DNA of 64,000 nucleotides, taken from NCBI GenBank assembly GCA_028292265.1, contig JAQGMR010000065.1, forward strand, positions 1-64,000. The letters run 5' to 3'. Of the stretch, positions 6,891 to 64,000 are shown in pieces. The stretch comes from Herminiimonas sp. GTDB lineage: Bacteria; Pseudomonadota; Gammaproteobacteria; Burkholderiales; Burkholderiaceae_D. The notes under the pieces are model-generated. The model saw only the letters and a list, made by a program, of their open reading frames with translations, was not told where the DNA came from and did not search any database. Position numbers and translations under genes: made by a program. The stretch's first letter is position 1; the number at the start of each line of letters is the position of its first letter.

Positions 6891-6905
6891 CTTTAGCCAC
6901 GACCG

Positions 6906-7319: not shown

Positions 7320-7338
7320 TGCTTTCCCTTTGCCCGGA

Positions 7339-7944: not shown

Positions 7945-8026
7945 GTTGTCCCCTTGTTGTTTCCAATGTCTTGCGACGCGGCCAGGCGGTTGCCACCGAT
8001 ACGGTTGCAGCGTCGTTATACCGGAC

Positions 8027-9157: not shown

Positions 9158-9166
9158 GGCTCTGCC

Positions 9167-12862: not shown

Positions 12863-14047
12863 TTAACGGGTCTCCGCAAACAGTTCCCGGCCGATCAGCA
12901 TGCGCCGGATCTCGCTGGTACCCGCGCCAATTTCGTAGAGTTTCGCATCGCGCCACAGTCGGCCGGTTGCATAGTCGTTGATGTATCCATTGCCGCCGAG
13001 CGCCTGTATTGCCTCGCCCGCCATCCATGTCGCTTTTTCGGCGGAATAAAGAATGGCGCCAGCCGCATCCTTGCGCAAGGCACGCACCGCTTCCGGAGTC
13101 CTGGCCCGGTCGCATGCCTGGCCGACAGCATAGACGTACGCCTTGCAGGCCATCATGGTGGAGTACATGTCGGCCAGTTTGCCTTGCATCAACTGAAACT
13201 CGCCGATGGGCTGGCCGAACTGCTTGCGCTCATGGACGTACGGCACCACGACATCCATGCAGGCTTGCATGATGCCGAGTGGCCCACCCGACAGCACGGT
13301 GCGCTCGAAATCCAGGCCAGACATCAGCACGTTTACGCCCTTGCCAAGCCCGCCGATGATGTTCTCTGGCGGCACTTCGCAGTCGACGAAAACCAGTTCG
13401 CCTGTATGGGAGCCTCGCATGCCAAGCTTGTCGAGCTTTTGCGCGACCGAGAACCCGGGAAAGCTCTTCTCGATCAGGAATGCAGTGATGCCACGCGGCC
13501 CCGCCTCCAGATCGCTTTTGGCATAGACCACCAGTACATCCGCGTCCGGGCCATTTGTGATCCACATCTTGGTGCCGTTGAGCACCCAGCGGTCGCCCTT
13601 CCAGTCGGCGCGCAGTTTCATGTTGACCACGTCGGATCCGGCGCCGGGCTCAGACATGGCGAGCGCGCCGACGTGTTCCCCGGACACCAGCTTCGGCAGA
13701 TATTTTTTGCGCTGCTCTTCGCTGCCGTTGCGCCGAATCTGATTGATGCAGAGATTCGAATGCGCCCCGTAGGAAAGGCCGACCGAGGCGGAGGCCCGCG
13801 AAATTTCCTCCATGGCGATGATGTGCGCGAGATACCCCATGCCCGTCCCGCCATATTCTTCATCGACCGTCACGCCAAGTACGCCCAGTTCACCCATCTT
13901 GCGCCACAAGTCCATGGGGAACTGGTCACTCCGGTCAATCTCCGCGGCGCGCGGCGCAATTTCAGCCGCGGCGAATTGCTGGACGGTGTCGCGCAGTGCG
14001 GCGATGTCTTCGCCGTGGTCGAAGCTCAAGCCTGGTAGCGGTGTCAT
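12863..14047 (-). CDS. liuA: Isovaleryl-CoA dehydrogenase
   Basis: 394-residue FAD enzyme that converts isovaleryl-CoA to 3-methylcrotonyl-CoA. The family signature that separates it from other acyl-CoA dehydrogenases is visible: the catalytic glutamate sits in [10 protein letters not shown] (Glu248), while the usual C-terminal position reads [11 protein letters not shown] with glycine in place of glutamate. Other motifs are [12 protein letters not shown] and [15 protein letters not shown]. The ATG is preceded by AGGAGA. A LiuR-type palindrome lies 73 bp upstream in the 107-bp gap after liuR, so this is probably the main regulated promoter of the operon. Confidence 0.97.
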
Positions 14048-20681: not shown

Positions 20682-20743
20682 AAGTGAATCCTTGTTATGA
20701 ATTGAAAAAGTTTGCTGAGGTTTTCCAGGGCGGTGCCCGGCTG

Positions 20744-21748
20744 CTAATGAAGTCGTGCTGACGCCATGCGCGCCGCAATGCGCAAGGCGTGCTCCAGCCC
20801 GCCCGGGTTGGCCTGTCCCTGCCCGACGATATCGAATGCCGTGCCATGGGCGGGTGTGGCGAAGACGACCTTGAGCCCAGCGGTGACGGTGACGCCGCGA
20901 TTGAAGCCTAACAGCTTGGTCGCGATCTGACCCTGGTCGTGGTACATCATTACCACGCCGTCATATTCCTGCTTCATCGCCTTGAGGAAAATAACGTCGG
21001 ATGAAATCGGTCCGGCGCAGTCGATGCCCTCGGCATGCAGCCGTTCAACCGTCGGACGGATGATGCGGATCTCCTCGTCGCCAAACAGTCCGCCTTCTCC
21101 GTTATGCGGATTGAGCGCGGCCACGGCAAGTCGCGGGGCGACGATGCCATTGGCCTTGAGCGTGGCGTTGGCCAGTCGCACCGCGGAAGTTATGCGCTCC
21201 GGCGTGACCAGGTCGATTGCCTCCCGCAAGGACACGTGCGAAGTGACGCGAAAGGTGGCGAATTCCTTGATGGCGTTCATCTCGCCAAAGAAACCAACGT
21301 GCTGGGTCAGCGCCGCAAACATCTGGTGCTCGTCGTGATATTTCCAGCCGCCGCGATGCAGGGCGCCCTTGTTCAAGGGAGCAAAGCAGATGCCGTCGAG
21401 CTCGCCGGCCAGGGCGAGGTCTATCATGGTTTTGAGGGTGTCGCCGGACAGCCGGCCCGATTCCGGCGACATGGCGCCGCGCTCGATTGTGGCGGGATCG
21501 ATATTGCCCAGATCAATAATCGGCACATCATCGCTTGACCAGTCGATATCAGAAATCTTTTCGTAGCGGCGCCACGCCAGTTCGACGCCGGCATCGGTAC
21601 AGCCGAGTTGCAGCACGCGCACATCGCCGACGACGACGATCCGCGCTTCTTCCTTCAGGCTGCCTTCCGCCAGAACCTTTGCGCATATCTCCGGGCCGAT
21701 GCCGGTCATGTCGCCTGGCATTAGTCCAATTACCGGTCGTGCTTTCAT
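20744..21748 (-). CDS. PdxA2-type 4-phosphate dehydrogenase (4-hydroxythreonine-4-phosphate dehydrogenase family)
   Basis: 334 residues of the PdxA fold: GLMPGDMTGIGPEI, CFAPLNKGALHRGG with substrate-binding Lys, a metal-binding histidine in FRVTSHVSLREA, ALNPHNGEGGLFGDEE, VMMYHDQGQIATKLLGF and FATPAHGTAFDIVG. The context (transporter, PrpD-like, hydroxyacid dehydrogenase, no vitamin B6 genes) fits the PdxA2 subgroup, which oxidatively decarboxylates 4-phospho-D-threonate or -erythronate, better than pyridoxal synthesis. No tetronate kinase of the DtnK type is beside it, though otnK lies 27 kb away. Its start region is a 14-bp tandem duplication that creates an out-of-frame upstream ATG at 21762. 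Confidence 0.88.
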   Translation of the reverse strand: MKARPVIGLMPGDMTGIGPEICAKVLAEGSLKEEARIVVVGDVRVLQLGCTDAGVELAWRRYEKISDIDWSSDDVPIIDLGNIDPATIERGAMSPESGRLSGDTLKTMIDLALAGELDGICFAPLNKGALHRGGWKYHDEHQMFAALTQHVGFFGEMNAIKEFATFRVTSHVSLREAIDLVTPERITSAVRLANATLKANGIVAPRLAVAALNPHNGEGGLFGDEEIRIIRPTVERLHAEGIDCAGPISSDVIFLKAMKQEYDGVVMMYHDQGQIATKLLGFNRGVTVTAGLKVVFATPAHGTAFDIVGQGQANPGGLEHALRIAARMASARLH

Positions 21749-21874
21749 CTTCGTGCTTTCATGTTTGCGTTTCCACTTCGGTGCTGATTTTCATGCTGAT
21801 GATTGGGTCCCGTTCGTGTTGCACTTTCAACGTCCTGTGCACGCGCACCGCGCCGTATTGAGGAATGCCTTCCT

Positions 21875-23296
21875 CTATGCGGAGCTGCGAGTTAATGCGG
21901 CCATGAGGAGGTCGATAGAAGGAAGCGTCTCCAAATCGCGGACCATTGCAATAACCGACTCTGCCTGTTGCGACGGAAAGCGCGCATAGTCCGCGTTCTC
22001 ACGGAACTTGTCGGCGACGTCCTCATAGTGCATCGGCTCGAATGGACTCCCCTTGCCGAAATCGGCCCTGCCAGAGATCGTGCGGCCATCCGCCAAATGG
22101 ATGTCGATGATGGTGGTCATCTTGTGATAGCCCGCGGCTTCGGCCTCGGCATCAACCACAAAGTCGATTTTCTCAATCATCGCTTTCACGTCGGGGCGGT
22201 TTACCACTGCGTCGGTGAACTCGCTTAGCCCCGCCCGACCTTCGAGCAGCAGGATCGCCATGCAAAACTCCATGGAGAACTTGGCTTGCAGTTCATTGAC
22301 GGGGCGATGGTGGATTAGCGCATTGGGCATGTTGTGATTGGTGCCGACCCGCACCCGAAGCACGTCCGTGGCGCGTATGTGGTTGGCCCGGATCAATCGC
22401 AGCATCTCTGTCATGCCCGGATGCGTTAGCGATCCCGACGGATGCGGCTTGATTGATACTCCCGGGTCAGCGATGGTCCACGGACTGCCGAGTTTCCCGG
22501 CGATGGCTTGCGGGTCATAGCCGCCACCAGCGGCGCTAAAGAACCCGCGCGGCGCCTCCAGAATCCGATCCGTTGCAGTCCAGCCGCAGGATGCAAACTG
22601 GGCGGCTACGACGCCGCTTTCGGACGCGCGTCCAGCATGGAAAGGCTTGGTCATCGTGCCGAAATTCTCACGCAGGCCGGCGGACTGGCTGCCGGCGATG
22701 GAAAGCGCGCGTGCGGTCGCTTCGACACTCAGGCCGAGCAACCTTGCGCTTGCGGCAGCCGCGGCGAAGGTTCCGCAAGTCGCCGTGGCATGAAAGCCGG
22801 TCTGATAGTGGCGCGGGTTGATCGCCTCGGCGATCTTGCACTCCACTTCGACGCCGAGATGGTAAGCGAGCATGGCTGCGCCACCGGTTGCGCCAGTGGA
22901 TTCACCCATGGCAAGCGCTGCCGGCAGTGCGGGCGCTGTGGGATGCGTGAGCAGTCCGTAGACCCGGTCAGTCGCCACGGCGAGCTGCGTATCGTCGTAG
23001 TCGTCGGCATGGATTGCGACGCCATTGGCGAAGGCTGCAAAACGCGGCGCTATCTTCAGGTCTGTACCAATCACGGTGGCCGGACCGACGCCAAGGTTCA
23101 AGTCGGCAAAGTGCTGCCGGACCATGCCGCCGCAGGTCGTGGCGCCGCCAGACAGCGCAAGGCCGAGTCCGTCCAGAATTGACTTCTTGCCGAGGGCGAC
23201 AACGTTTTCCGGGAGGTCGCTCAAAATGGTATTGCAGACCCAGTCGGCGACGTAGAGGGTCAGGTTCTCGATGCCGGCCGCATTCTTGTCATGCAT
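21875..23296 (-). CDS. MmgE/PrpD family protein
   Basis: 473 residues of the family that includes 2-methylcitrate dehydratase and cis-aconitate decarboxylase. Recognisable blocks are KKSILDGLGLALSGG, ANGVAIHADDYDDTQ, the GFHATATCGTFAAAAASARLLGL region, GTMTKPFHAGRASESG and SIKPHPSGSLTHPG. The ATG (complement 23294-23296) is preceded by GGAGA; a GTG four codons earlier is a weaker choice. It probably dehydrates or isomerises a hydroxy tricarboxylic-type acid brought in by the adjacent transporter. Substrate is unknown. A 126-bp gap separates it from the PdxA2 gene. Confidence 0.88.
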   Translation of the reverse strand: MHDKNAAGIENLTLYVADWVCNTILSDLPENVVALGKKSILDGLGLALSGGATTCGGMVRQHFADLNLGVGPATVIGTDLKIAPRFAAFANGVAIHADDYDDTQLAVATDRVYGLLTHPTAPALPAALAMGESTGATGGAAMLAYHLGVEVECKIAEAINPRHYQTGFHATATCGTFAAAAASARLLGLSVEATARALSIAGSQSAGLRENFGTMTKPFHAGRASESGVVAAQFASCGWTATDRILEAPRGFFSAAGGGYDPQAIAGKLGSPWTIADPGVSIKPHPSGSLTHPGMTEMLRLIRANHIRATDVLRVRVGTNHNMPNALIHHRPVNELQAKFSMEFCMAILLLEGRAGLSEFTDAVVNRPDVKAMIEKIDFVVDAEAEAAGYHKMTTIIDIHLADGRTISGRADFGKGSPFEPMHYEDVADKFRENADYARFPSQQAESVIAMVRDLETLPSIDLLMAALTRSSA

Positions 23297-23377
23297 GTCT
23301 GTCTCCACACAAAGGTATTCGCGTGAACTGCGAATTCTTTAAATTGAAACCACGCGCCGCGATGGCCCAGGCCATCT

Positions 23378-24532
23378 TCAATGCGCCAATGCGCGGCAAT
23401 GCTGGGGCGGGAACCGCAGCCATACCGTCGTGCCCTCGGCGATTGCTACGTCGGCCGATGCAATCGCCCGCACCGTTTCTCCGCTTTCCAGCAGCACGAG
23501 ATAGTCACGCGATGCGCCAAGATATACCTGGCGGGTGACCACGCCACTAATGCAATTCGTCTCCGTCGATCCCGGCGCCGAGGTAGAGATGCCGATGTCG
23601 TGGTGGCGTACCGAGACAGAGGTATCGCCTTGGGAATCGTAATCGCCGCTTCCACAACGAAGAACCAGGCCTCCGCCGCAATCAACCGCGTCGACCCCGT
23701 CCCATCGACCCTTGAAAATGTTGGTTCCGCCAATGAAGCGTGCAACGAATTCAGTGCGGGGCCGTTCATAGATGTCTTTCGGCGAGCCGGCCTGCTCTAT
23801 CGTCCCCTGGTTCATTACCACGATCATGTTCGCAGTCGTCATGGCTTCGGCCTGGTCGTGGGTCACATACACCGTGGTGTAGCGATACTTGTCATGCAGG
23901 CGACGAATCTCGAACCGCATTTCCTCACGGAGGTTGGCGTCCAGGTTGGACAGCGGCTCATCCAGCAGCAAGGTTTCCGGCTCAATTACCAGCGCGCGTG
24001 CAAGCGATACGCGCTGCTGCTGGCCGCCAGACAATTCGCCGGGATAGCGCTGCGCCAGCGCGTCGAGCCTGGTTGCGGCGAGTATGGTGTCGGTGCGCTT
24101 CGCGATATCGCTTTTCGGAAGCTTGCGAAGTCGCAGTCCGTAGGCGACGTTTTCATACACCGTCATGTGCGGCCAGAGTGCATAACTCTGGAAGATCATT
24201 GACATATTGCGGCGCTCTGGCGCCTCGCATTTCCCGGGAGCGGAAATGCAACGGCCGCCAACCCGGATTTCGCCGGCATCCGGCTCCACGAAGCCGGCGA
24301 TCAACCGCAGCGTGGTCGTCTTTCCACATCCGGAGGGACCGAGCAGGCAAACGAGCATTCCCTTTTCGATCGATAGCGAAATGTTGTTTACCACGGCCTG
24401 CGATCCGTAGTTCTTGCTCAGGCCGCTCAGTTCAACAAAGCCGGTCGATCCGCTCTGCTGCAGGGTTGTTTCAGGTCGCATGTCGTTTGCTTTGTCGAGT
24501 GGCGTGGTGACGTCGTCGGAAGCCTGCTTCAT
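23378..24532 (-). CDS. ABC transporter ATP-binding protein, FbpC/PotA type
   Basis: 384 residues. Walker A GPSGCGKTT at 65-73, signature LSGGQQQRVSLARAL, Walker B LLLDEPLSNLD and switch histidine YVTHDQAEAM are all intact, followed by a C-terminal TOBE-type domain that in this subfamily gates uptake. It energises import through the adjacent two-domain permease at the inner membrane. Its ATG overlaps the permease stop in an ATGA. The subfamily transports iron(III), polyamines, thiamine or organic acids, so the sequence alone does not give the cargo. Confidence 0.93.
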   Translation of the reverse strand: MKQASDDVTTPLDKANDMRPETTLQQSGSTGFVELSGLSKNYGSQAVVNNISLSIEKGMLVCLLGPSGCGKTTTLRLIAGFVEPDAGEIRVGGRCISAPGKCEAPERRNMSMIFQSYALWPHMTVYENVAYGLRLRKLPKSDIAKRTDTILAATRLDALAQRYPGELSGGQQQRVSLARALVIEPETLLLDEPLSNLDANLREEMRFEIRRLHDKYRYTTVYVTHDQAEAMTTANMIVVMNQGTIEQAGSPKDIYERPRTEFVARFIGGTNIFKGRWDGVDAVDCGGGLVLRCGSGDYDSQGDTSVSVRHHDIGISTSAPGSTETNCISGVVTRQVYLGASRDYLVLLESGETVRAIASADVAIAEGTTVWLRFPPQHCRALAH

Positions 24533-26262
24533 GTGGCACGCGGCAAACGGTTTGCTCCGCCGCTTGAAAAGCGGTTAGCGATGAATACGATGATGAAGGA
24601 AACCGCAAGCAGCATCAGGCCGAGGACAGAAATTGCGCCGAGGTCGCCGCTCTCATTCAGGTCGTAGATGATGACCGATACCAGTTTTGTATTGGCCGTA
24701 GTCAAAAGGATCGTGGCGGACAGTTCACGAATTGTCCCGATGAAGACGAAGCACCAGGTAGCCATGACGCTGGTTCTCAGAAGCGGTGCCGTAACCAGGC
24801 GCAGCGTCTTGAGCCGGCTGGCGCCGAGAATCCGGCTCGCGTCTTCCAGTTCCGGATGAATGCCATGGAAGGCCGAAGACATCTGCTGGTAGCCGGCAGG
24901 CATTTCGATGGTGAGGAATGCGATCAGCAGTATCCAGAGCGTCCCGTACAGCATCAGGGCGGGATGCGAATAGGTAAGGAAGACGCCCACACCCAGGACG
25001 ATGCCCGGTATGGCGACGGGCGCAGTCGCAAGCATTCCAAGCAACGCCGAACCGCGCACCGCGCGGCGTGACACCATGTACGCCGCCATAAGCGCGATAA
25101 CGGTTCCCAGCGTGGCGGTGCCCAGGCCAAGCACCAGCGTGTTCCACAACGCGAGCCGGGTTGCGGAGAATTCGAAAAACACAAAGTGGAAGTTGTGCAG
25201 CGTCAGCGCGCTCCAGGTGAGCGGCTCCGAGACGTTGCGCGTCAAGGCAGTCTTCAGCAGCGCGGCATACGGCAGGATCACCGTCAGCCCGAGCACAATG
25301 ACGACGAAGGCGACGGCCAGCCACTTCCAGCGCCCCAATCGTGCAGTCCGCGGCTCACCGCTTTTGCCACCCAAAACGGTGTAGCCCTTGCGGCCCAGTA
25401 TCCAGCTCTTGCCTTGCAATAGCGCCACGGTGATCAGCAGCAGCGGCAGGGAAGCTGCTGCGGCGAGGCCGAGCCGGGGCGGGTATTGAAACAGGCTCCA
25501 GATCTTGGTGGTGATGACATGAAAGCCGGCGGGCAAGGCAAGGATGGCCGGCGTGCCAAACATGGTCAACGCCTGGAGGATTGCGATCAGTGAGCCGGCC
25601 AGCATCGCTGGCAGCACGAGCGGAATCGTGACCCGCTGCAGCGTGGTCCAGGTGCGCGCGCCGAGGATGGCGGAGGCATCCTCCAGGTCGGTGGGGATGC
25701 GGTCCAGACCATTGGCCACCAGCGTGAATACGTAGGGAAAGGTATAGCAGGCGATGGCGAAAACCAGGCCTTCGATCGTGTAAATGTCGACCAGGTGGCT
25801 GCCTTCCTCGGCGCCGGTCACGGTACGGAAAAGCTGGTTGATCATTCCGCTGTTCGGCGCTGCCAGAATTTCCCAGGCGATGGCGCCCAGGAACGGCGGC
25901 GTCACGAAGGAGGCCGTAACGAGCGCCCGCACGATTCGCCGGCCTGGCAGGTCGGTTCTCGAAACGAGCCATGCCAGCGGGGTGGCGATCACACAGGACA
26001 AAACACCCACCGCGCATGCCATGGCGCTGGCCAGAAGGAACGGCCGGCGCATCGTGACGTCCGTCACCAGCGCCGTGAAATTGCTGAGCGTGAAGGCGCC
26101 GCTCTTGTCGACCAGGCTGGTGTAAATCAGCCATGAAAGCGGCAATATCACCAGTACTGCAAGGACCGCAGCGAGCAGGAAGAAAACCGGGCCAAACAGG
26201 TCGGCACGGCGAGGAGCGCGCGCGACCGGGGCTGAAACCGGAACCGCGACGACTGAACCCAT
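24529..26262 (-). CDS. ABC transporter permease, fused two-domain FbpB type
   Basis: 577 residues with two repeated membrane domains of about six helices each. Each carries the ATPase-docking EAA-type loop: EDASAILGARTWTT in the first half and EDASRILGASRLKT in the second. This head-to-tail fusion is the FbpB/ThiP plan. The ATG at 26262 follows the binding-protein stop by three bases; a TTG immediately before it is an alternative start. With the ATPase that overlaps its end it forms the only transport engine for the three binding proteins upstream. Confidence 0.92.
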   Translation of the reverse strand: MGSVVAVPVSAPVARAPRRADLFGPVFFLLAAVLAVLVILPLSWLIYTSLVDKSGAFTLSNFTALVTDVTMRRPFLLASAMACAVGVLSCVIATPLAWLVSRTDLPGRRIVRALVTASFVTPPFLGAIAWEILAAPNSGMINQLFRTVTGAEEGSHLVDIYTIEGLVFAIACYTFPYVFTLVANGLDRIPTDLEDASAILGARTWTTLQRVTIPLVLPAMLAGSLIAILQALTMFGTPAILALPAGFHVITTKIWSLFQYPPRLGLAAAASLPLLLITVALLQGKSWILGRKGYTVLGGKSGEPRTARLGRWKWLAVAFVVIVLGLTVILPYAALLKTALTRNVSEPLTWSALTLHNFHFVFFEFSATRLALWNTLVLGLGTATLGTVIALMAAYMVSRRAVRGSALLGMLATAPVAIPGIVLGVGVFLTYSHPALMLYGTLWILLIAFLTIEMPAGYQQMSSAFHGIHPELEDASRILGASRLKTLRLVTAPLLRTSVMATWCFVFIGTIRELSATILLTTANTKLVSVIIYDLNESGDLGAISVLGLMLLAVSFIIVFIANRFSSGGANRLPRAT

Positions 26263-26265
26263 CAA

Positions 26266-27312
26266 TCAGGTTCCGAAATATTCTTCGTACTTCTTCTTGA
26301 TCGTGTCAGTTTGCGCTTCGAGCGCCGCGGCATCTGGAAGCAGCAGCTTGATCTGGGACAGCGCCAGGCGACCCGGCTTTTCCTTCACCTCGCGATGGAA
26401 GGAGCGCAAGCCGCCTACATCGCTATTCGCCTGCTGCGCTTCGCGTGTGAACATGAAGTGATAGAACAGGCGCGCTGCATTCGGGTGCGGCGCAGTCTTC
26501 AGAAGCCCTGCATTGCCAATCACCAGCGGCGTTCCTTCGGTGGCATAAACCGGTTCGATCGGCGCGCCGGTTTCCCGCAGCAGGAAGACGTTGTACTCGT
26601 TGCCATCAGCCATGACGGCGCGTTCGCCACGTTGGAGTTTTTTCGGCGGCTCGGTTGAGGACTGAACCTGCATGACCTGCTGCTTGCCGAGCTTCTCGAA
26701 ATAGCCCCATCCAAGCGCCTGGCTCAAAGCGAAGGTGGCGCTCATGATGGTGCCGCTATAGCCGGGATGTCCCTTGACCATCTTGCCTTTCCACTTCGGA
26801 TCCAGCAGGTCGGCGAAACTCTTTGGCGCGTCCTGCTGCTTCACGAGCTTGGTGTTGTAGGCAATGACGGAAAGATGCGCGCGATACGCTGCAAACTGCC
26901 CATCGGGATCCCTTTGCTCCTTCGGCCAGAATTTCGCAACGTCGGACGGTACCGCCGGCTGAAGCCAGCCGGCGCGCTTGAAGTAGATGAAATGGACCGC
27001 GTCGGACGATTCAATAACGTCCGCCCCATAAATCTTGCTGTTCATTTCCTGCGTGATGCGCTGAAAATTGCGCTCCGCGCCACCTCGCTCGACCTGCACT
27101 TTGATGCCCGGATATTTCGCCTCAAATGCCGCCGCCAGCTTCTCGGCTACCGCCACGTCGGTGGAGGAGTAGAACACGACCTTTGCTTCTTTTTTTGCGG
27201 CTTCGACCAGTTGCGGGCTGGCGTCATACGGTGCCGGCGCCTGTGCCTGTGCCATGCCGGAAAAAGCGGCGACCGCAACGCAAAGGACAGCACTAGAGAA
27301 TTTGCTCAACAT
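26266..27312 (-). CDS. ABC transporter solute-binding protein, FbpA-like
   Basis: 348 residues with a signal peptide (MLSKFSSAVLCVAVAAFSGMAQA, cleavage after AQA). The mature part starts PAPYDASPQLVEAAKKEAKVVFYSSTDVAVAEKL and is a family-1-type iron/organic-anion receptor with GGAERNFQRITQEM and YSGTIMSATFALSQALG. It ends next to the permease start, so it is the cognate receptor. GGAGA precedes the ATG. I do not see a clear tyrosine pair for ferric iron, so an organic acid is as likely as iron. Confidence 0.9.
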   Translation of the reverse strand: MLSKFSSAVLCVAVAAFSGMAQAQAPAPYDASPQLVEAAKKEAKVVFYSSTDVAVAEKLAAAFEAKYPGIKVQVERGGAERNFQRITQEMNSKIYGADVIESSDAVHFIYFKRAGWLQPAVPSDVAKFWPKEQRDPDGQFAAYRAHLSVIAYNTKLVKQQDAPKSFADLLDPKWKGKMVKGHPGYSGTIMSATFALSQALGWGYFEKLGKQQVMQVQSSTEPPKKLQRGERAVMADGNEYNVFLLRETGAPIEPVYATEGTPLVIGNAGLLKTAPHPNAARLFYHFMFTREAQQANSDVGGLRSFHREVKEKPGRLALSQIKLLLPDAAALEAQTDTIKKKYEEYFGT

Positions 27313-27362
27313 ACCGTCTCCGTTATTTTTTCTTGGTTGTGCAGGCTTGCCGATCCGGATAG

Positions 27363-28226
27363 CTACCGGGCGCCGACTGCCACCGGTTCCAGACCGCTCT
27401 TTTCGATGGTAGCGGCCGACTGCGCCGACGAAAGGAACTTGATCAGCTCGGCGGCCCCCGCAGAATTCTTGGACTTGCTTGCCACACCGGCCGAGAAAAC
27501 CGTCATCTTCTGCACCTCGGACGGAATCTTGCCCACCAGAGTGATCCCCGGCACCGGCAGCAGTTCGCTGAGCTGTTGAAAGCCCAGCTCCGCCTCGCCG
27601 CGTGCCACGACAGCGCCAACCGGCTCTGCAGGAATGCCCCTGGCCTTGTCATTCATCTGCTCGACAATGCCCAACCGGGGGAACAGCTCGTTCTTGATGT
27701 AGACGCCGCTGGCACTGTCCGAATAGGCGACCGATTTTGCATTGAGGAGGGTCTGCTTCAACGCTGCCACGGAGCTGATGTCGGGCTTGGCCGCGCCCGC
27801 AATCACCGCCATGCCAATCAGCGAATTTGCGAGCGGCGTGCGGCTGGCCGAAACGACAGCGCCATCGGCGGCGAGCTTGTCGAGCGCCTCGCCAGCCATG
27901 ATCAGCACGTCTGCGTCTTCACCGCGTTTCAGTCGATTGGGAATCGCTTGCGGCGTCTCACCCATGGATGGACCGCGGATGGTAGTGACCTTGTTGCGCG
28001 TCGCCTGCTCGAATTGCGGTACCAGTTCCTTGAAGGCTTCCGACAAGCCGCCAGAAATCATGACCTTGATGTCGCCGGCCGTGGCGTGCACAGACGCGGC
28101 CGAAAGCAGGAAAGCAATGCCGACGGCAGTGAGCCGCCCTCTCAGTGACGCGGCGATGCGTGCAAAGGGATAGAACGACGACTCTGCCCAATGGCTATCA
28201 GCTTCATTCATGTCTAGCGTGCCCAC
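27363..28226 (-). CDS. ModA-type solute-binding protein (periplasmic)
   Basis: 287 residues. The start is a GTG at 28226 with GGAGA five bases upstream; the signal segment (GRLTAVGIAFLLSAASVHATA) follows an unusually long 25-30 residue N-terminal stretch. The mature domain begins GDIKVMISGGLSEAFKELVPQFEQATRNKV, like molybdate-binding ModA and its relatives for small anions. No modBC genes are adjacent. It lies 50 bp upstream of the FbpA-like gene and may feed the same permease or act in sensing. Confidence 0.85.
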   Translation of the reverse strand: MGTLDMNEADSHWAESSFYPFARIAASLRGRLTAVGIAFLLSAASVHATAGDIKVMISGGLSEAFKELVPQFEQATRNKVTTIRGPSMGETPQAIPNRLKRGEDADVLIMAGEALDKLAADGAVVSASRTPLANSLIGMAVIAGAAKPDISSVAALKQTLLNAKSVAYSDSASGVYIKNELFPRLGIVEQMNDKARGIPAEPVGAVVARGEAELGFQQLSELLPVPGITLVGKIPSEVQKMTVFSAGVASKSKNSAGAAELIKFLSSAQSAATIEKSGLEPVAVGAR

Positions 28227-28337
28227 GCTGTTCTCCGCTTGAGGATGCCTGTTTTTCTTGTCGGTCCTGATTCAATATGCCACGAACGGGACAGCAGGCC
28301 AGACCTGCGCGCGCTGTCCCGCAACACTGCGTCAAAC

Positions 28338-29657
28338 TCAGAGCTTGTAATAACGCTCCGCCCGCTTGGCTGCGCGCTCCATCGCCTCTTTAGGACTGCG
28401 CGAGCCGCTGGCCGCTTCCGAGATCATGTTGACGACAATGAAGTCGGCCATGGCCGAGGCGGATGCAAAGCCAAGGTCGCCGGCATAGCCATTGCTGAGC
28501 ATTACCTTCATCAGGTCCCGGTACGGCGTGTGCTTCGGATCCGAGGTCCAGATTGGATTGGACTCGTAAGCCTTCAGCGGCTGGGTGACGTAGCCGATGG
28601 CGGCCTGCTGCCAAGGAATGTACTGTTCTTTCTCCATCATGAAGCGCAAGAATTCCTTGGCCGCATTCGGGTACTTGGTGTACTTGAACACCATCATCGG
28701 GAACACGAGAGATAGCTCGGTCGGATGGCCGACCGGGCCGATCGGCATGTTGGCGTGGTTGATGTCGGCTGCCATGGCGGCAATCCCCGGCTCCTTGGAG
28801 GTCTTTGCCGCGTAATAGATCGAGATGCCGTTGTTGGTAAGGCTGATCTGGCCGTCGAGGAATGCCTTGTTATTGTTGGGATCGAGCCAGGAAAGGGTGC
28901 CGGGGACGAAGGTCGCATACAACTCCTTCGCATATTCCAGCGCCTTCAAGGTTTCCGGGCTGTCGATGGAGACCTTGTTCTGCGCATCGACCAGCTTGCC
29001 GCCGAATGCCCAGAGCAGCCAATGGCACCACTGGTTGGCATCACCCGTCGCATTGCCGAGCGCGAAACCGGCCGGCGTACCCTTCGCCTTGAGTCCCTGG
29101 CAAAGCTTGAGGAAACCTGCGGTGTCCTTCGGGAAGGTGTCGAAACCCGCAGCCTTCATATGGCTTTCACGGTAGACCATGCAGCTGCCAGCGGCGCCCA
29201 TGGGTATGGCGTTCCACTTCTTTTTGTCCACCATGCCGTAGGCCTTGGCTGAGTCGTACCAGCCGCCATACTTGTTGCCGAGATAGGTGGCAAGGTCGGT
29301 CAGGTCGACCAACTTGTCGGGGTAAAGGTGGGAATCCTCGAAAGTGCCAATGATGATGTCGGGACCGCTGCCGACGTTCGCCGCAACCGCGGCTTTCGGC
29401 CGAACGTCTTCCCAGCTTTCGGCGTCGATGCGGACTTCGACTCCGGTCAGCTCAGTGAATTTCTTTGTGTTGGCAAGCCAGGCATCTTCGTCGCCCTGCA
29501 CGAAGCGCTTCCAGCGCAGCATGCGCAGCTTGGCGCCTTTCTCCGGCACGTAGCGCTGCCCTGGCGCGCCGGCTGCAAATGCCGGCTGCACGATGGTCGA
29601 TGCAGCGGCGACCGCTGCCGTCGTTTGAAGAAATTCCCGTCTCGTATAATCTTTCAT
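28338..29657 (-). CDS. Extracellular solute-binding protein, carbohydrate (family 1) type with Tat signal
   Basis: 439 residues. The N-terminus has a twin-arginine signal (RREFLQ at 6-11, then a hydrophobic Ala-rich stretch to AFA), so it is exported folded. The body is a sugar-type receptor: LRMLRWKRFVQGDEDAW, DIIIGTFEDSHLYPDKLVDL, and FPMMVFKYTKYPNAAKEFLRFMMEKEQ. GAGGAGAC precedes the ATG. No MalF/MalG-type permease is nearby; it is the first gene of the operon and 111 bp upstream of the ModA-like gene. Ligand unknown. Confidence 0.88.
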   Translation of the reverse strand: MKDYTRREFLQTTAAVAAASTIVQPAFAAGAPGQRYVPEKGAKLRMLRWKRFVQGDEDAWLANTKKFTELTGVEVRIDAESWEDVRPKAAVAANVGSGPDIIIGTFEDSHLYPDKLVDLTDLATYLGNKYGGWYDSAKAYGMVDKKKWNAIPMGAAGSCMVYRESHMKAAGFDTFPKDTAGFLKLCQGLKAKGTPAGFALGNATGDANQWCHWLLWAFGGKLVDAQNKVSIDSPETLKALEYAKELYATFVPGTLSWLDPNNNKAFLDGQISLTNNGISIYYAAKTSKEPGIAAMAADINHANMPIGPVGHPTELSLVFPMMVFKYTKYPNAAKEFLRFMMEKEQYIPWQQAAIGYVTQPLKAYESNPIWTSDPKHTPYRDLMKVMLSNGYAGDLGFASASAMADFIVVNMISEAASGSRSPKEAMERAAKRAERYYKL

Positions 29658-56592: not shown

Positions 56593-57306
56593 TCAGGCGG
56601 CTTCCGCCGACCGCCGCTCGGCCAGCCATTTCCCGGCCAGTACAATCAGCACCGCCCCAACCAGCCCTGGAATGCTGATTGTCGAAGCCAGTCCAGGAAT
56701 CGGGATTTCGTGATGGGGCAGGTTTGCCGCAATCCAGGGCGCCAGGCCGGTATCGGTAAACAGCATGTCGCCCGCGAGGTACCCGAGCAGCGCTGCGCCA
56801 AGCACGATGATGACGGGGAGCCGTTCCATCAGCTTCAGGATAAGCGTACTGCCGAAGATGATAAGTGGAATGCTGATGGCCAGGCCGAGCACCAGAAGCG
56901 TGATGTTGCCCTTGGCCGCGGCCGCCACCCCAAGCACGTTGTCGAGACTCATGACGAGGTCCGCCAACAGAATGGTCTTGATGGCGCTGGTCAGGCTGGA
57001 GTGGGTCTTTACCTCGCCTTCCTCTTCTTCGTCGGCCAGCAGTTGCATGCCGATGTAAAACAGCAGGATGGCGCCGACCAGCTTCAAATAGGGCAGCGTC
57101 AAAAGCTGAAGCGCAAAAATGGTAAGGATCACGCGCAGCACGATCGCGGCCGCGCTGCCGTAGAAGATGGCGAGCCGCTGCTGCCGTGGCGGCAGTGACC
57201 GCGCCGCCAGCGCGATGACGACGGCATTGTCCCCAGAAAGTACGATGTTGACGATGATGATGTTGCCGAGGGCAACCCAGAAAAGCGGGGAAGCTAATTG
57301 ATCCAT
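56593..57306 (-). CDS. TerC/YjbE-family integral membrane protein (candidate Mn exporter)
   Basis: 237 residues with about seven membrane helices. The family signatures are NIVLSGDNAVVIALAAR in helix 1-2 and ILLADLVMSLDNVLGVAAAAKGN in the second half, each with a conserved acidic pair (SGDN, SLDN) thought to bind Mn2+ or Ca2+. A short acidic DEEEEGE loop separates the halves. YkoY/YoaP-like members export manganese or metallate exoproteins. It is preceded by a structured leader of about 240 bp. The substrate is inferred from family. Confidence 0.88.
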   Translation of the reverse strand: MDQLASPLFWVALGNIIIVNIVLSGDNAVVIALAARSLPPRQQRLAIFYGSAAAIVLRVILTIFALQLLTLPYLKLVGAILLFYIGMQLLADEEEEGEVKTHSSLTSAIKTILLADLVMSLDNVLGVAAAAKGNITLLVLGLAISIPLIIFGSTLILKLMERLPVIIVLGAALLGYLAGDMLFTDTGLAPWIAANLPHHEIPIPGLASTISIPGLVGAVLIVLAGKWLAERRSAEAA

Positions 57307-57550: not shown

Positions 57551-59095
57551 CTATTCTTCCTGGAACGCCTCTTCGCGCTTGGCCTTGATCGACGGCAGGG
57601 CCACGATCACAACCAGGGCAGCAGCTGCGAGCAGCAAGCCGAGCGACAGCGGACGGGTAACGAAAACACTGAACTGGCCTCGAGACAACAGGAGCGCTCG
57701 TCGGAAGTTCTCTTCCATCATCGGCCCCAGGACAAAGCCCAGAAGCAGCGGTGCGCCCTCGCAACCCAGCTTGAGGAACACATACCCGAGGAAGCCGAAC
57801 CCTGCGGTGAGGAACACGTCGAAGGTGCTGTTGCTAACCGTGTAGACACCGATACAGCAGAACACGAGAATCGATGGATACAGGAAGCGATACGGCACGG
57901 TCAGCAGCTTGACCCACATGCCAATCAGCGGCAGGTTCAGGATGACCAGCATCAGGTTACCAATCCACATGGAGACGATCAGTCCCCAGAACAGCGATGG
58001 ATTGCTGGTCATGACCTGCGGTCCAGGCTGAATGTTATGAATGGTCATGGCACCGACCATCAATGCCATGACGGCGTTTGGCGGAATCCCGAGGGTAAGC
58101 AGCGGAATAAAGGAAGTTTGCGCCGCCGCGTTGTTCGCCGACTCCGGTGCGGCCACGCCTTCGATCGCACCCTTGCCGAATTCAGCGCGGTTCTTGCTGA
58201 CTTTCTTCTCAAGCGAGTAGGCACCGAATGAAGCCAGTGCCGCGCCGCCGCCAGGGAGAATGCCGAGTGCCGAGCCGAGGATGGTTCCACGAATCACCGG
58301 CGCGATCATGCGCTTCCAGTCTTCCTTGGTCGGGAACATGCTGGAGACCTTGCTCGTGAAGACTTCACGATGCTCTTTTTGCTCCAGGTTGGTGATGACC
58401 TCGGCGAAGCCGAACACGCCCATCGCAACCGCGACGAAGCCAACGCCGTCAGTCAGTTCCGGTATGCCGAATGCATAGCGCGAAACGCCGGTGTTGACGT
58501 CGGTGCCGATGATGCCCCCCAGAAGACCCAGGCAGATCATGGCGATCGCCTTGACCAGCGAACCGGATGCCAGCACCACTGCGCCGATCATGCCAAGCAC
58601 CATCAGCGAGAAGTACTCGGCCGGACCGAACTTGAAGGCCACTTCGGCCAGCGGCGCAGCAAAGGCGGCCAGCAGCAGCGTGCCCACGCAACCCGCGAAG
58701 AACGAACCAAGCGCCGCCGTGGTGAGCGCAACACCTGCGCGACCGCGCCGGGCCATCTGGTAGCCGTCGATACAGGTAACGACAGACGACGTTTCACCTG
58801 GGAGGTTGACGAGAATGGCCGTGGTGGAGCCGCCATACTGTGCGCCGTAGTAAATACCGGCCAGCATGATGAGCCCGCCCAGCGGCGGCAAGGCGTAGGT
58901 CGCCGGCAGCAACATGGCGATCGTAGCGACGGGGCCGAGTCCAGGCAACACGCCGATCAGGGTGCCGATCAGGGCGCCAAGGAAAGCGTAGACCAGGTTC
59001 ATCGGCAAGGACATCGTTACACCGGCGACGGTGAACGGGTCCATCGACAGCACGGCGGTAAAGCCGATGCCGAGATTATGAAAAAGTGTTTCCAT
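57551..59095 (-). CDS. Tripartite tricarboxylate transporter large membrane subunit TctA
   Basis: 514 residues with about 12 membrane helices, starting at the ATG at 59095 after AAGGAGACACTGCAC. The conserved glycine/proline loop GVLPGLGPVATIAMLLP lies near residue 50, followed by YYGAQYGGSTTAILVNLPGE, and a second copy-like motif LGILPGGGAALASFGAY is near residue 270. With TctB it forms a sodium- or proton-coupled importer that takes its ligand from a Bug-type receptor. The tctB stop lies 13 bp upstream. A Bug receptor is 4 kb away in the same direction. Confidence 0.93.
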   Translation of the reverse strand: METLFHNLGIGFTAVLSMDPFTVAGVTMSLPMNLVYAFLGALIGTLIGVLPGLGPVATIAMLLPATYALPPLGGLIMLAGIYYGAQYGGSTTAILVNLPGETSSVVTCIDGYQMARRGRAGVALTTAALGSFFAGCVGTLLLAAFAAPLAEVAFKFGPAEYFSLMVLGMIGAVVLASGSLVKAIAMICLGLLGGIIGTDVNTGVSRYAFGIPELTDGVGFVAVAMGVFGFAEVITNLEQKEHREVFTSKVSSMFPTKEDWKRMIAPVIRGTILGSALGILPGGGAALASFGAYSLEKKVSKNRAEFGKGAIEGVAAPESANNAAAQTSFIPLLTLGIPPNAVMALMVGAMTIHNIQPGPQVMTSNPSLFWGLIVSMWIGNLMLVILNLPLIGMWVKLLTVPYRFLYPSILVFCCIGVYTVSNSTFDVFLTAGFGFLGYVFLKLGCEGAPLLLGFVLGPMMEENFRRALLLSRGQFSVFVTRPLSLGLLLAAAALVVIVALPSIKAKREEAFQEE

Positions 59096-59805: not shown

Positions 59806-60501
59806 CTACAGCTCGAAGCCGCCGCGCCTGCGCAGTTCCGAGGACTGCGGACCGGACAAAAGGCTGACGAGTTCGCGTGCGACATCCTGATGATCCGATG
59901 TGGTGCATACGGCAGCGGTGTACACGGTTGCCAGTTCAAACTCCTTGGGTAGCGCCGCGACCAGTGTCACGCCGGCTGTGTACAGTATCTCGGTCACTTG
60001 GGTACAGCCGATCAGACCCGGCTCGTCTGCCTTCGCCATCTCGGCCATCGCGGTTGCACCATTGGGGAACGGACGCAGTGCCTTGTCCACCTCGGCGAGG
60101 ATGCCAAGCTGCTTCACTACATTGATGAAGTGGATGCCAGCTGTGGCGCGCTGCGGGTCGGGGAAGTAAATGCCCTTCGCGCCCAGCAGCGCCGCGCGCA
60201 AGCCGTCCGCGGTAGCCACGTCCGGCATCGATTCCCCGGTCTTGACAGCGACCCCGGTCTTGACCTTGCCGAGCGGGGCCGCCGTGTTGGGCACGACGTG
60301 GCCGGCTTTCTCCAGTTCTGCAATCAGCGCGTTGGTGAGTATGAGAACGTCGCAGGGCGCCCCGGCCAGCAGCTTTTCCTTCATCACCCCAACCGCGCCG
60401 AAAGTGCCCTGCAACTGTGCGCCAGTCCTTGCGCTGAAGTCCGACTGCAATGCCTTGACGACGCCGCTCGCGGCACCGCCGCTTAGTATGTGCAGATCCA
60501 T
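59806..60501 (-). CDS. ModA-like substrate-binding domain protein lacking a signal peptide
   Basis: 231 residues that begin MDLHILSGGAASGVVKALQSDF, the first strand of a periplasmic-binding fold like molybdate receptor ModA. AAGGGGAA sits five bases before the ATG, so the start is well supported and no signal peptide precedes the domain; the protein should remain in the cytoplasm. It lies 39 bp after the large subunit of a molybdenum hydroxylase. It may handle the substrate, molybdate or the cofactor, or sense a ligand; none is shown. A second, exported ModA-like protein occurs at 27.4-28.2 kb. Confidence 0.88.
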   Translation of the reverse strand: MDLHILSGGAASGVVKALQSDFSARTGAQLQGTFGAVGVMKEKLLAGAPCDVLILTNALIAELEKAGHVVPNTAAPLGKVKTGVAVKTGESMPDVATADGLRAALLGAKGIYFPDPQRATAGIHFINVVKQLGILAEVDKALRPFPNGATAMAEMAKADEPGLIGCTQVTEILYTAGVTLVAALPKEFELATVYTAAVCTTSDHQDVARELVSLLSGPQSSELRRRGGFEL

Positions 60502-60540
60502 TTTGATTCCCCTTTTTTGTGCAGGCTGTCACCTGACCGC

Positions 60541-62760
60541 TTAGGCGAGCAGGCTGACAATGCGTTCAGTGGTAATTGGAAGCTCGCGTACGCGCAGCCC
60601 GAGTGCATCGGCCACCGCGTTACCGATGGCAGCGGCGGTCGGCCCGAGCGAGGCTTCACCAGCGCCGAGCGAAGTGTCGCCCGAGTCTATCAATACAATA
60701 TCAACTGCGGGGACTTCGGTAAAACGCAGAATCGGATAGGCTTCCCAGCTGTCGCTGGTGACACGCTCGCAGTCGAAGCGAACGGCTTCCTTGAGTGTCC
60801 AGCTGGTGGCCTGGATTGCGCCGCCTTCGATCTGGTTACGTACGCCGTCCGGGTTGATAACGAGGCCAACATCGACCGCTATGGTTAGGCGTCGCACCCG
60901 AATTTCTCGGCCGGCTTCAACTTCGGCCACGACCGCGCACCACGCGCCGGTGTTCTTGTAGCGGGCGAACCCCAGGCCACGGCCGATGCCTTCCATCTTG
61001 TCGGCGCCGCGCCACCCTGAACGTGCCACGGCCCGCTCGATCACCTCACGCGCACGCGGATCGGTGCAGCCGGCGAGCCGGAATTCGACTGGATCGCGAC
61101 CGGCTGCAAGTGCCAACTCGTCCATGAAAGACTCGGCAGCGAAGACATTGGCGAGCGCACCGAGCGCGCGGAGCGCCGAGGTCCGCAGTGGCATAGTCAG
61201 GACGCGATGATTCACCACATGCCATGCAGGGAAATCGTAGGACGGTATGGCGTTTCTTTCGGCGCCGCCGCCCGCCACGAGCGGCGCATTGATAGCCGCC
61301 AGCACCGGGAACGGCTTCGCCGTATGCCAGCTTCCAAGCAGTGCCGGGGTGGGCGCGCGGCCGGGACGATTACTGTGTCCGTTGCTCCACACACTGTGGC
61401 GCCATGCAAGCACATTGCCTTGTGCGTCGACGTCAGCTTCGAGGTCAACCGCCATCGCAGGCCCAAAAGGCGCCCATGCCAGTTCGTCGGCGCGCGACCA
61501 CTGCACCCTAACCGGCACGCCCGGCTTCGCCCGAGCCAGCCAGGCGGCATCCCAGGCGACATCATCTGCACCGTTGTGCCCATAGCAGCCGGCACCTTCC
61601 ACGTGCTGCACAATAATGTCGCCGACAGCCATAGTGAAAGCGCGAGCAAGGTCGCGCTGCAGGTTGTAGATTCCCTGGCTGTGTGTCCACACTTCAAGCC
61701 GCGTGCCATCGAAACGAGCCAGCGCACAGGACGGGGCCATCGACGCATGCGCGATATAGGGTTTGGCGTAGCTGGACTTGATGGTGCGAACGGTGGCGGT
61801 GCTTCCCGCATCATGAGGCTGGACGGCCGTGTTGTCATCAGCATCGCAACGCTGGTTCACTGCCATGCCATGCGTCGCTACCACGTGCGTATCAGCCGGT
61901 TGCTGCTTCAGCCACTGCGCCATGTGATGCTCGTCCGGCAGGGCAGCATCGACCGGACTTTGCCATGTGGCGTGCTTGCGAACGATCTCGGCGGCCCGGT
62001 CAGCCAGGCGCTCGGTCGCTGCCAACACGGCAAGCACTGAGCCATCACGAAGGATTTCCGCGTCGACGATTCCGGCCTCGGTGATTTTTTCTGCGGCGGT
62101 GCCAAGCGACTCGAGTCGAGCCGCGGGAGATGCAGGCCGCACCATGCGGGCGTAGCGCATTCCCGGCAGCACCACGTCGTGTATGAATCGGCGCTCGCCA
62201 AATACCTTGGCCGGCAGGTCGAGGCGGGCCGCGGTGACGCCGACTAGCGTGTAGTCGTTGCCGGACTTTGGAGCGGCTTCGCCACTTGCTTCACGATCCA
62301 GCAGAGCGTCGTTCGCCAGCGCCCAGTAACTGGTGCTCCGGCCGTCGGCATGCAGAATATCCCCCTGCTCCACGCGCAGGTGCGTGGCCTCAGCCTGCAA
62401 CCATTGCGCCGCCGCCTGCAAATAAAGCCGGCGTGCTTCGGCGCAGGCCTGGCGCAACGCAGCGCCAGATTCCTGGATAGAGAGGCTGCCCGAGGTAACT
62501 GCTTCGTTCGGGCTGGTAGCGGTGCTGGCCGCCACCATGCGCACCTGGTTGCACCGCAAATCGAGTTCTTCGGCGACGATCTGCGCCAGGGCGGTCAGGA
62601 TGCCCTGGCCGAGTTCCACCTTGCCAGAATAGACCTCGACCTTGCCTTCACGGGTGAATCGCAACCACTGATTGAGGCGCCGGTTCACGTGCAGGCTGCC
62701 AGGCAAGGGCTTCGCGGCAGGTTCGCCGCTGGCACTGGCCGCAGCCATCACATACGCCAT
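60541..62760 (-). CDS. Xanthine-dehydrogenase-family molybdopterin-binding subunit (isoquinoline 1-oxidoreductase type)
   Basis: 739 residues from the ATG at 62760, two bases after the small-subunit stop. Blocks include LRFTREGKVEVYSGKVELGQG, the molybdopterin-contact AEELDLRCNQVRMVAAS, QGIYNLQRDLARAF and GYGHN-like CYGHNGADDVAWDA, and a C-terminal active-site glutamate in LGAGEASLGPTAAAIGNAV. It hydroxylates an N-heterocycle or aldehyde with water using Mo. It pairs with a [2Fe-2S] subunit; no FAD subunit is present, as in isoquinoline or nicotinate-type enzymes that pass electrons to a cytochrome. No Tat signal is visible. Confidence 0.92.
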   Translation of the reverse strand: MAYVMAAASASGEPAAKPLPGSLHVNRRLNQWLRFTREGKVEVYSGKVELGQGILTALAQIVAEELDLRCNQVRMVAASTATSPNEAVTSGSLSIQESGAALRQACAEARRLYLQAAAQWLQAEATHLRVEQGDILHADGRSTSYWALANDALLDREASGEAAPKSGNDYTLVGVTAARLDLPAKVFGERRFIHDVVLPGMRYARMVRPASPAARLESLGTAAEKITEAGIVDAEILRDGSVLAVLAATERLADRAAEIVRKHATWQSPVDAALPDEHHMAQWLKQQPADTHVVATHGMAVNQRCDADDNTAVQPHDAGSTATVRTIKSSYAKPYIAHASMAPSCALARFDGTRLEVWTHSQGIYNLQRDLARAFTMAVGDIIVQHVEGAGCYGHNGADDVAWDAAWLARAKPGVPVRVQWSRADELAWAPFGPAMAVDLEADVDAQGNVLAWRHSVWSNGHSNRPGRAPTPALLGSWHTAKPFPVLAAINAPLVAGGGAERNAIPSYDFPAWHVVNHRVLTMPLRTSALRALGALANVFAAESFMDELALAAGRDPVEFRLAGCTDPRAREVIERAVARSGWRGADKMEGIGRGLGFARYKNTGAWCAVVAEVEAGREIRVRRLTIAVDVGLVINPDGVRNQIEGGAIQATSWTLKEAVRFDCERVTSDSWEAYPILRFTEVPAVDIVLIDSGDTSLGAGEASLGPTAAAIGNAVADALGLRVRELPITTERIVSLLA

Positions 62761-62762
62761 GT

Positions 62763-63269
62763 TCAAGCGCCGACTCCCAAAGGCTTGGGTACCTGCACTG
62801 CACCAGTCTCTGCGGCGCGCAGCACCGCGCGCACGATCCGGTTGTGAACGCCGCAGCGGCATAGATTGCGATCGAGCGCCTCTCGAACCTGCTCTTCACT
62901 CGGCTTTGGCGTACGACGCAGTAGCGCTGCGGCCGAGGCAAGCATGCCGGCCGTGCAGTAGCCACACTGGGCCGCCTGCTCATCCAGAAAAGCCTGTTGC
63001 AGTGGATGCGGCGCCACGGCACTGCCGAGACCTTCGACGGTCGTGACTTCCTTGCCCTCAAGCGCCCAAAGCGGCAGGTCGCATGAGGCGACCGCATTGT
63101 CGTCCAACAGCACGAAACACGCGCCGCACTGGTTACTACCGCAACCGAAGCGCGTGCCTTTTAGATCCAGCGTATTGCGCAACACGTCCAGCAACGGCGT
63201 ATTGGTGTCGGCCTCGACTTCATGCTGGCGTCCATTGACCCGAACGGTGATGGTTGCCACCTGGCTCAC
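62763..63269 (-). CDS. (2Fe-2S)-binding subunit of the molybdenum hydroxylase
   Basis: 168 residues with a GTG start (complement 63267-63269) that overlaps the upstream receptor stop as GTGA. The first cluster is plant-ferredoxin-like: Cys43, Cys48, Cys51 and Cys63 (FGCGSNQCGACFVL). The second, helical cluster uses Cys102, Cys105, Cys137 and Cys139 (QCGYCTAGM, CRCG). It transfers electrons from the Mo site to an external acceptor. Without a flavin subunit that acceptor may be a cytochrome or ferredoxin. Confidence 0.95.
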   Translation of the reverse strand: MSQVATITVRVNGRQHEVEADTNTPLLDVLRNTLDLKGTRFGCGSNQCGACFVLLDDNAVASCDLPLWALEGKEVTTVEGLGSAVAPHPLQQAFLDEQAAQCGYCTAGMLASAAALLRRTPKPSEEQVREALDRNLCRCGVHNRIVRAVLRAAETGAVQVPKPLGVGA

Positions 63270-64000
63270 TGGTCTGCCTTCGCTCCAGAGATTTTTACGA
63301 TGTGCGCCCACTTGGTGATGTCGTCGGCGACGTACTTCGAGAACTGCGCCGGTGTCATTTTCATTGGGATAGCGCCCTGCTTGGCCCATGCCTCTATGAC
63401 TTTGGGGTCCGACGCCATTTTCGTGACTTCGTCGTTAAGCCGCTTGACTATTTCCGGTGGCGTGCCTTTTGGCGCCATCAAACCCAGCCAGATCACTGCT
63501 TCATAGCCCGGCACGCCGGACTCGCTCACCGTAGGCACGTTAGGCAGGACCGTGGAGCGGGTCTTGCCGGTGGTGCCAATAGCCTTCACTTTGCCAGTTC
63601 GGATGAAGTCGGCCATGGTCGGCACTGCGTCGAACATCATGTCGACCTGGCCGCCCAGCACGTCGGTGCGCGCGCCGGAACTACCGCGGTACGGCACATG
63701 CAGGATCTTTACGCCGGCCATCGATTTGAAAAGTTCACCTGCCATGTGGTACGGGGTACCCGGACCAGAGGATGCGTAGGTCAAGCTCTCGGGCTGGCTT
63801 TTCGCCAGCTTCAGAAGGTCTGCAAGGTTGGTTACCGCCAGGCCCGGTTTCGTCACCAGCACAAGGTCGGAGTAGTTGATTGGCGCAACTGGTGCGAAGT
63901 CGCGCATCAGGTCGAATGGCTTCTTTGTGAAGAGCGACTCATTGACCGTATGCGTGTTCGACATCAGCAGCAAGGTGTAGCCGTCAGGCGGGCTCTTGGC
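63266..64000 (-). CDS. Bug-type tripartite tricarboxylate transporter receptor (5' end cut by window edge)
   Basis: The last 244 residues are present; the signal peptide and first lobe start lie beyond the right edge. Visible blocks are KSPPDGYTLLLMSNTH, VAPINYSDLVLVTKPGL, PYHMAGELFKSMAGVKILHVPYRGSSGARTDVLGGQVDMMFD-type segment and the C-terminal EIVKRLNDEVTKMASDP. Bug receptors capture organic acids or heteroaromatic acids in the periplasm for TctAB. Its stop overlaps the molybdenum hydroxylase small-subunit start, so uptake and oxidation of one compound are probably coupled. Confidence 0.92.
   Translation of the reverse strand, partial: AKSPPDGYTLLLMSNTHTVNESLFTKKPFDLMRDFAPVAPINYSDLVLVTKPGLAVTNLADLLKLAKSQPESLTYASSGPGTPYHMAGELFKSMAGVKILHVPYRGSSGARTDVLGGQVDMMFDAVPTMADFIRTGKVKAIGTTGKTRSTVLPNVPTVSESGVPGYEAVIWLGLMAPKGTPPEIVKRLNDEVTKMASDPKVIEAWAKQGAIPMKMTPAQFSKYVADDITKWAHIVKISGAKADQ

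Follow-up and report, generated by a model that had tools for sequence, protein, structure and literature searches.

An operon on the minus strand of the analysed DNA combines a Bug-type periplasmic receptor, a two-subunit molybdenum hydroxylase and a tripartite tricarboxylate transporter with a ModA-like protein without a signal peptide (hereafter ModAL), which belongs to a clade apart from its exported relatives. Judged by sequence, the novelty lies in a known fold in a probable new compartment with conserved new partners, the function being a prediction. The wider picture, proposed here with more doubt than conviction, is that exported solute-binding proteins (SBPs) gave rise in proteobacteria to a cytoplasmic family, which would have lost the signal peptide and would act as an enzyme or as a substrate acceptor for a Bug-imported acid, encoded in one operon with the receptor and the hydroxylase and fused to an acetyltransferase in one lineage. 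Among open-access papers, judged by titles and the beginnings of abstracts, no description was found of a cytoplasmic ModA-like protein of this kind and likewise none of the hydroxylase and the transporter together. Solute-binding proteins are assumed to act outside the membrane, and the names of the families matched by ModAL refer to molybdate or to binding outside the cell; a conserved clade in the cytoplasm would represent relocation, possibly even conversion to an enzyme, and homology-based annotations would need correction. The linked hydroxylase, Bug and FAH-family genes then provide a defined module for substrate finding.

Operon organization and the hydroxylase

The window, i.e. the whole analysed stretch of 64,000 bases (G000:C55:1-64000), belongs to a contig of 76,077 bases. 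From 5' to 3' on the minus strand the gene order is FAH-family gene, Bug, small subunit, large subunit, ModAL, tctB and tctA:

64302-65228 (-), outside the window: FAH-family gene, first gene of the operon, 1 base before Bug
63266..64000 (-), continuing to 64300 outside the window: Bug (TctC-type) periplasmic receptor, 344 aa in all, PF03401; full open reading frame in L137
63266..63269 (-): GTGA, overlap of the Bug stop and the small-subunit start, by direct sequence reading
62763..63269 (-): small [2Fe-2S] subunit, 168 aa, GTG start; PF01799 and PF00111; eight Cys
60541..62760 (-): large molybdopterin-binding subunit of the two-subunit Mo hydroxylase, 739 aa; PF20256 and PF02738
60509..60514 (-): AAGGGG, its end 7 bases from the ModAL ATG; probably the ribosome-binding site
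59806..60501 (-): ModAL, predicted cytoplasmic ModA-like (SBP_bac_11) protein, 231 aa; PF13531 at 101.2 bits
59109..59570 (-): tctB, small membrane subunit of a tripartite tricarboxylate transporter; PF07331; 235 bases between ModAL and its start
57551..59095 (-): tctA, large membrane subunit of the same transporter type; PF01970; 13 bases after tctB

The layout given by the first-pass annotation was confirmed. The Bug stop TGA (63268-63266) shares bases with the small-subunit start GTG (63269-63267), and the match coordinates agree with the same overlap in three other loci (L006, which is from Noviherbaspirillum soli, L053 and L054); it may tie translation of the hydroxylase to that of the receptor. 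The large subunit (ATG at 62760-62758) begins two bases (AC) after the small-subunit stop (62765-62763), as had been claimed, and its own stop is separated from the ModAL ATG (60501) by 39 bases. The position of tctBA downstream of the ModA-like gene also held, the Pfam scan having found TctA, TctB and TctC all present (PF01970, PF07331, PF03401), which makes a full transporter set. A GntR/FCD regulator is divergent from the operon, with a second Bug beyond it. Next after tctA in the window is a TerC-family gene (56593-57306, minus strand), and a similar gene, named by eye, takes the same place in L055 (17165-17833, plus strand), so synteny reaches past the operon.

The small subunit carries Cys at positions 43, 48, 51, 63, 102, 105, 137 and 139, consistent with its two [2Fe-2S] domains, and GAGE at residue 699 of the large subunit agrees with the GxGE motif, whose glutamate we take to be a functional residue of molybdenum hydroxylases; these two features gave no sign of a broken enzyme. 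The best solved relative of the large subunit was 8gy3_C, while the hydroxylase scored far under the cut-offs of all NCBIfam equivalogs listed, and the FAH-family gene was likewise under every NCBIfam cut-off listed. Because the large subunit has no Tat leader (by eye), the hydroxylase was taken as cytoplasmic; the full Bug protein has a signal-like N terminus. By analogy with Bug27 and Bug69 of Bordetella, which bind quinolinate according to the available text of PMC11452294, an N-heteroaromatic acid is a possible substrate, and orphan Bugs near catabolic genes are described in the available text of PMC5812351. The same genome encodes a second hydroxylase, about 49% identical (L143, G000:C2:44000-62000, at 6640-9359), with no SBP_bac_11 gene in the fetched flanks.

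Fold and predicted location of ModAL

The open frame of ModAL comprises 240 codons in total and is closed by a stop nine codons upstream of the ATG, with no start codon between; therefore no upstream start can supply a signal peptide, and the earlier statement that the protein lacks one was borne out when such a start was sought. The ATG itself is located at the first predicted strand of the domain, and the ribosome site noted previously is probably the AAGGGG that ends seven bases before it; L006 and L053-L056 have purine-rich stretches in the corresponding position. By eye, the way in which all signal peptides were judged, an export signal was recognized in a single member of the 44-row ModAL clade, L058, while L045, lacking an ATG close to its domain, was ambiguous. 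The L058 protein (8895-9701, minus strand) has a lipoprotein-like signal (LPGC) and a long branch nested within the clade, which may mark a regained export. The ModA-like domain is followed by a C-terminal GNAT domain (PF00583, E 2e-15 to 1e-17) in each of the five f22 loci (L067-L070, L078), and, GNAT enzymes using cytosolic acetyl-CoA, these fused proteins are placed in the cytoplasm independently. On such sequence grounds ModAL is predicted to be cytoplasmic.

The PF13531 (SBP_bac_11) profile was covered completely (1-227 of 227) at 101.2 bits vs a cut-off of 25, while the score on the ModA equivalog TIGR01256, 44.5 bits (44 bits when the whole genome was searched), was under the cut-off of 62.5. 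The AlphaFold model of ModAL, built on an alignment of three rows only, had a pLDDT of 86; four other models were poor (mean pLDDT 63 to 48). Against solved structures the ModAL model gave Z values of about 24 for ModA and for YvgL-like proteins (1wod, Z 24.0), 19.4 for PEB3 with bound phospholactate (3fj7) and 19.0 for AcfC with bound D-aspartate (4jb7), and the PDB sequences listed by phmmer (10) were all ModA-type proteins. Residues S12, S39, A125, V152 and Y170 are presumably the oxyanion ligands of E. coli ModA; in the alignment, from which the cleft residues of ModAL were assigned, four of them are replaced (A10, V37, G148 and Q168 for S12, S39, V152 and Y170), and A125 is kept as A121. 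The genome's own ModA aligned poorly in the 56-row alignment and was excluded from this ligand comparison; it is encoded elsewhere (contig C26) and reaches 178.8 bits on TIGR01256. An exported relative on contig C6 lies just at the same cut-off (62.9 bits, with neighbours). The modB and modC genes are not beside ModAL, whose neighbours are the hydroxylase and tctBA. ModAL is, according to the model, ModA-like in fold and probably not a ModA.

Homologs were sought in genome samples at three levels, the own genome being counted each time. A match was found in 15/294 genomes at family level (E 1e-25), 30/399 at order level (1e-35) and 11/398 at phylum level (1e-30); tblastn thresholds in the analysis were 1e-6 to 1e-8. 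The matches listed had no internal stops and were widely conserved. Trees of 48 and then 56 rows, from which L042, L004 (the own-genome match) and L105 (34% identical, with a signal peptide by eye) were left out, separated 12 exported relatives from 36 and then 44 ModAL rows with a split support of 100/99. Sixteen of the 32 positions listed are invariant in 44/44 clade rows, including G9, A10, V37, G38, D115, A121, G122, P146, G148, M152, T167, Q168, E171 and Y194. Among the 12 exported relatives V37 and A121 are each present once and T167 three times, while Q168 and E171 are each kept in 11. A pattern scan of genome contigs found one relative only, and a plasmid search found none at 60% identity or above, the best among the matches listed being at about 33%.

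Linkage of ModAL with the receptor and the hydroxylase

The order Bug-small-large-ModAL was present in 14 genomes of five families (f1, four; f9, f10 and f49, one each; f88, seven):

Bug-small-large-ModAL loci: the window, L006, L053, L054, L063, L064, L066, L098-L104

The seven f88 loci (L098-L104) are near-copies from one genus, with a TRAP transporter after the module (by Pfam on L099 and by conserved gene clusters). In L098 the Bug match (12865-13568, minus strand) is in two pieces, perhaps by frameshift or sequencing error. One further locus, L065, has small-large-ModAL without Bug, and ten loci of the same subclade (L055-L058, L067-L070, L078, L097) carry ModAL but no hydroxylase of the window's clade: L055 and L056 retain FAH and tctBA, the Bug of L056 being only 31% identical, L058 has no Bug, and L057 has, about 6 kb off, a hydroxylase that is more distant (38% and 34% identity). 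In L082, which extends the stretch of L046 on a larger scale, a relative of the small subunit (46%) was found about 5.5 kb off. Altogether the hydroxylase was counted absent in 29/44 ModAL rows, where absence means lack of a member of the window's hydroxylase clade, the presence label was set by hand for 15/44 rows with the rest counted as without, and the flank covered was only about 1.5 kb in eight of the 29 (L044, L045, L047-L052).

Seen from the receptor, Bug was found at E 1e-95 in 29/399 genomes of the order sample, and in 27 of the 29 its identity was 58% or more. Within the fetched flanks four of these 27 had both hydroxylase and ModAL, five ModAL only, five hydroxylase only and 13 neither; in nine of the latter 13, a ModAL of another subclade is present elsewhere in the genome. 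Thus, 18/27 lacked ModAL in the flanks, including G427, G584 and G430, where the contig ends just downstream; contig ends near the genes in L173, L174, L178 and L140 likewise make an absent neighbour weak evidence there. In the opposite direction, of the 10 order-sample genomes with a ModAL of the Bug-linked subclade, nine carry Bug in that cluster, upstream of ModAL.

The large-subunit search of the order sample gave 71 matches in 49/399 genomes. Among the 30 best loci, which were examined, four had ModAL within about 1.5 kb, all in the window's hydroxylase clade (4/9 vs 0/21 in the sister clade). In a hydroxylase tree of 43 rows all 15 ModAL-linked large subunits fell into a clade of 20 (support 88/79; 19 rows at 95/97), five of whose rows were without ModAL, as confirmed in wider flanks; the sister clade of 22 had no ModAL in the fetched flanks. 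The ModAL label required four changes on this tree vs 12.7 in shuffles, with 0/500 as low, although the 15 vs 28 rows are a non-random set to which near-copies contribute, 11 rows having been picked for having ModAL and L143 and L060 added, and L060 was labelled as without ModAL though an exported relative adjoins. In L138-L142 the 4.5 kb that follow the large subunit contained no common gene in place of ModAL.

An exclusive assignment of ModAL to the hydroxylase was rejected, strict dependence failing in both directions: with the hydroxylase found without ModAL in 5/20 rows and ModAL without this hydroxylase in 29/44, neither needs the other. ModAL accompanies a single hydroxylase subfamily and a single Bug type, and each piece can be missing. 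The coupling of receptor, hydroxylase and ModA-like protein claimed in the first-pass annotation is therefore real and kept across families, but looser than stated, since next to this type of Bug either of the two, hydroxylase or ModAL, can be found alone.

The neighbourhoods of other ModAL subclades, for which the scan covered one or two representatives of each gene, were different. In f46 ModAL has an Iso_dh gene, a VOC protein, MmgE/PrpD and TctBA nearby, in f12 Bugs, a PEP-mutase-like enzyme and a 2-hydroxyacid dehydrogenase, and in f6 threonine synthase. Outside f6 the apparent common thread, as far as gene families indicate, is organic-acid transport and breakdown, and with such differing neighbours one common ligand is not obvious. 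In L060 (8487-13543) an exported relative is located between a FAH-like gene (35%) and a distant two-subunit hydroxylase (small 48%, large 35%), an arrangement that suits a ligand tied to FAH/hydroxylase pathways. The exported SBP_bac_11 paralog of the window (27363-28226, minus strand, in the region 19605-29657) adjoins ABC transporter genes, and a few kb from it are an Iso_dh-like (19605-20681) and a MmgE/PrpD-like gene (21875-23308), both named by eye; as ModAL adjoins Iso_dh or MmgE/PrpD in some f46 loci, the two forms, exported and cytoplasmic, may act in related pathways. A same-clade hydroxylase without ModAL (L142, 5041-8354) is near a DHDPS-family gene and a 3-hydroxybenzoate 6-monooxygenase, the latter over its NCBIfam cut-off.

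Possible roles and comparison with known systems

Tentatively, and a little short of even confidence, we favour a role of ModAL in binding, inside the cell, the acid that is imported or the product made from it. Bug would capture an organic acid in the periplasm, TctAB (or perhaps, in a different genus, the TRAP transporter encoded nearby) would import it, and ModAL would close on the acid or its hydroxylated product in the ModA-type cleft and would hold, buffer or present it to the cytoplasmic Mo hydroxylase and the FAH-family enzyme. What the sequence shows is the operon, the missing signal peptide, the fold (by model), the conservation and the partners; binding of the pathway's own acid, and binding as opposed to catalysis, are inferred. 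Counting against a plain binder, the known cytoplasmic proteins of the SBP fold are mostly enzymes or regulators. An SBP fold turned catalytic (e.g. for decarboxylation, isomerisation or lysis of the imported acid or hydroxylated product) is nearly as likely as a binder, although we regard it as rather doubtful in itself, with the sensor and molybdate roles behind. Cytoplasmic SBP-fold enzymes such as 4,5-dihydroxyphthalate decarboxylase, MqnA and MqnD have no signal peptide and are encoded in catabolic or biosynthetic operons. The predicted cytoplasmic location of ModAL fits this, as do the polar residues of the cleft motif, T167, Q168, E171 and Y194, conserved in 44/44 rows with T167 rarer in exported relatives (3/12); however, Q168 and E171 are kept in 11/12 of those relatives too, and these are presumed binders. 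A relative of 4,5-dihydroxyphthalate decarboxylase (9jp7, E 2.1e-24) is located about 2.5 kb from the ModAL-free hydroxylase of L142, on the other strand, a proximity that is only suggestive. No single reaction is common to all neighbourhoods, and the phmmer matches of ModAL listed from the PDB were ModA-type alone. Enzymes evolved from solute-binding proteins are on record, as stated in the available text of PMC7683729.

A cytoplasmic acid sensor regulating the pathway, the transporter or, when fused, the GNAT enzyme is improbable: the GNAT fusion, the location of the gene inside operons and neighbourhoods varying with the pathway would agree with it, but Pfam gives no DNA-binding domain in ModAL and a GntR-type regulator is already present in several loci (L137 and L099 by Pfam, others by blast). 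Export by another route, or decay from an exported binding protein into a remnant, is highly improbable; the lipoprotein-like signal of L058 speaks for it, while the GNAT fusions, the ribosome site at the domain start, the wide conservation and the lack of stops in the listed matches speak against it. The least probable role, with hardly any likelihood left, is the handling of molybdate or tungstate for the hydroxylase, which has the modelled ModA fold and the adjoining molybdoenzyme in its favour, was considered first and was set aside on the sub-cut-off score (44.5 vs 62.5 bits), the change at 4/5 ligand positions, the separate ModA of the genome (178.8 bits) and the 29/44 rows without this hydroxylase. 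Consequently, from the earlier proposal of a substrate or molybdate handler the molybdate part fell on these points, and the substrate part, i.e. the binder favoured above, is kept with the reserve already expressed.

Compared with described Bug/TctC receptors and tripartite tricarboxylate transporters, the present system is similar in having TctA, TctB and TctC, while the available texts of PMC5812351 and PMC11452294 mention no cytoplasmic binding protein. With ModA (TIGR01256) ModAL shares PF13531 and, in the model, the whole-length fold; it is unlike ModA in lacking a signal peptide and adjoining modBC, in its score under the cut-off and in 4/5 ligand positions. The exported SBP_bac_11 proteins (e.g. 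the window paralog, which is of the same Pfam family, and L014-L023) are about 30% identical to ModAL and mostly keep Q168 and E171, but have a signal peptide (by eye) and stand apart from the clade at 100/99. Among the matches listed, ModAL had no sequence match to the cytoplasmic SBP-fold enzymes, and the closest folds were ModA proteins. PEB3 and AcfC, taken here as exported proteins and with only 13-15% identity to ModAL, resemble it in the modelled fold and bind organic ligands.
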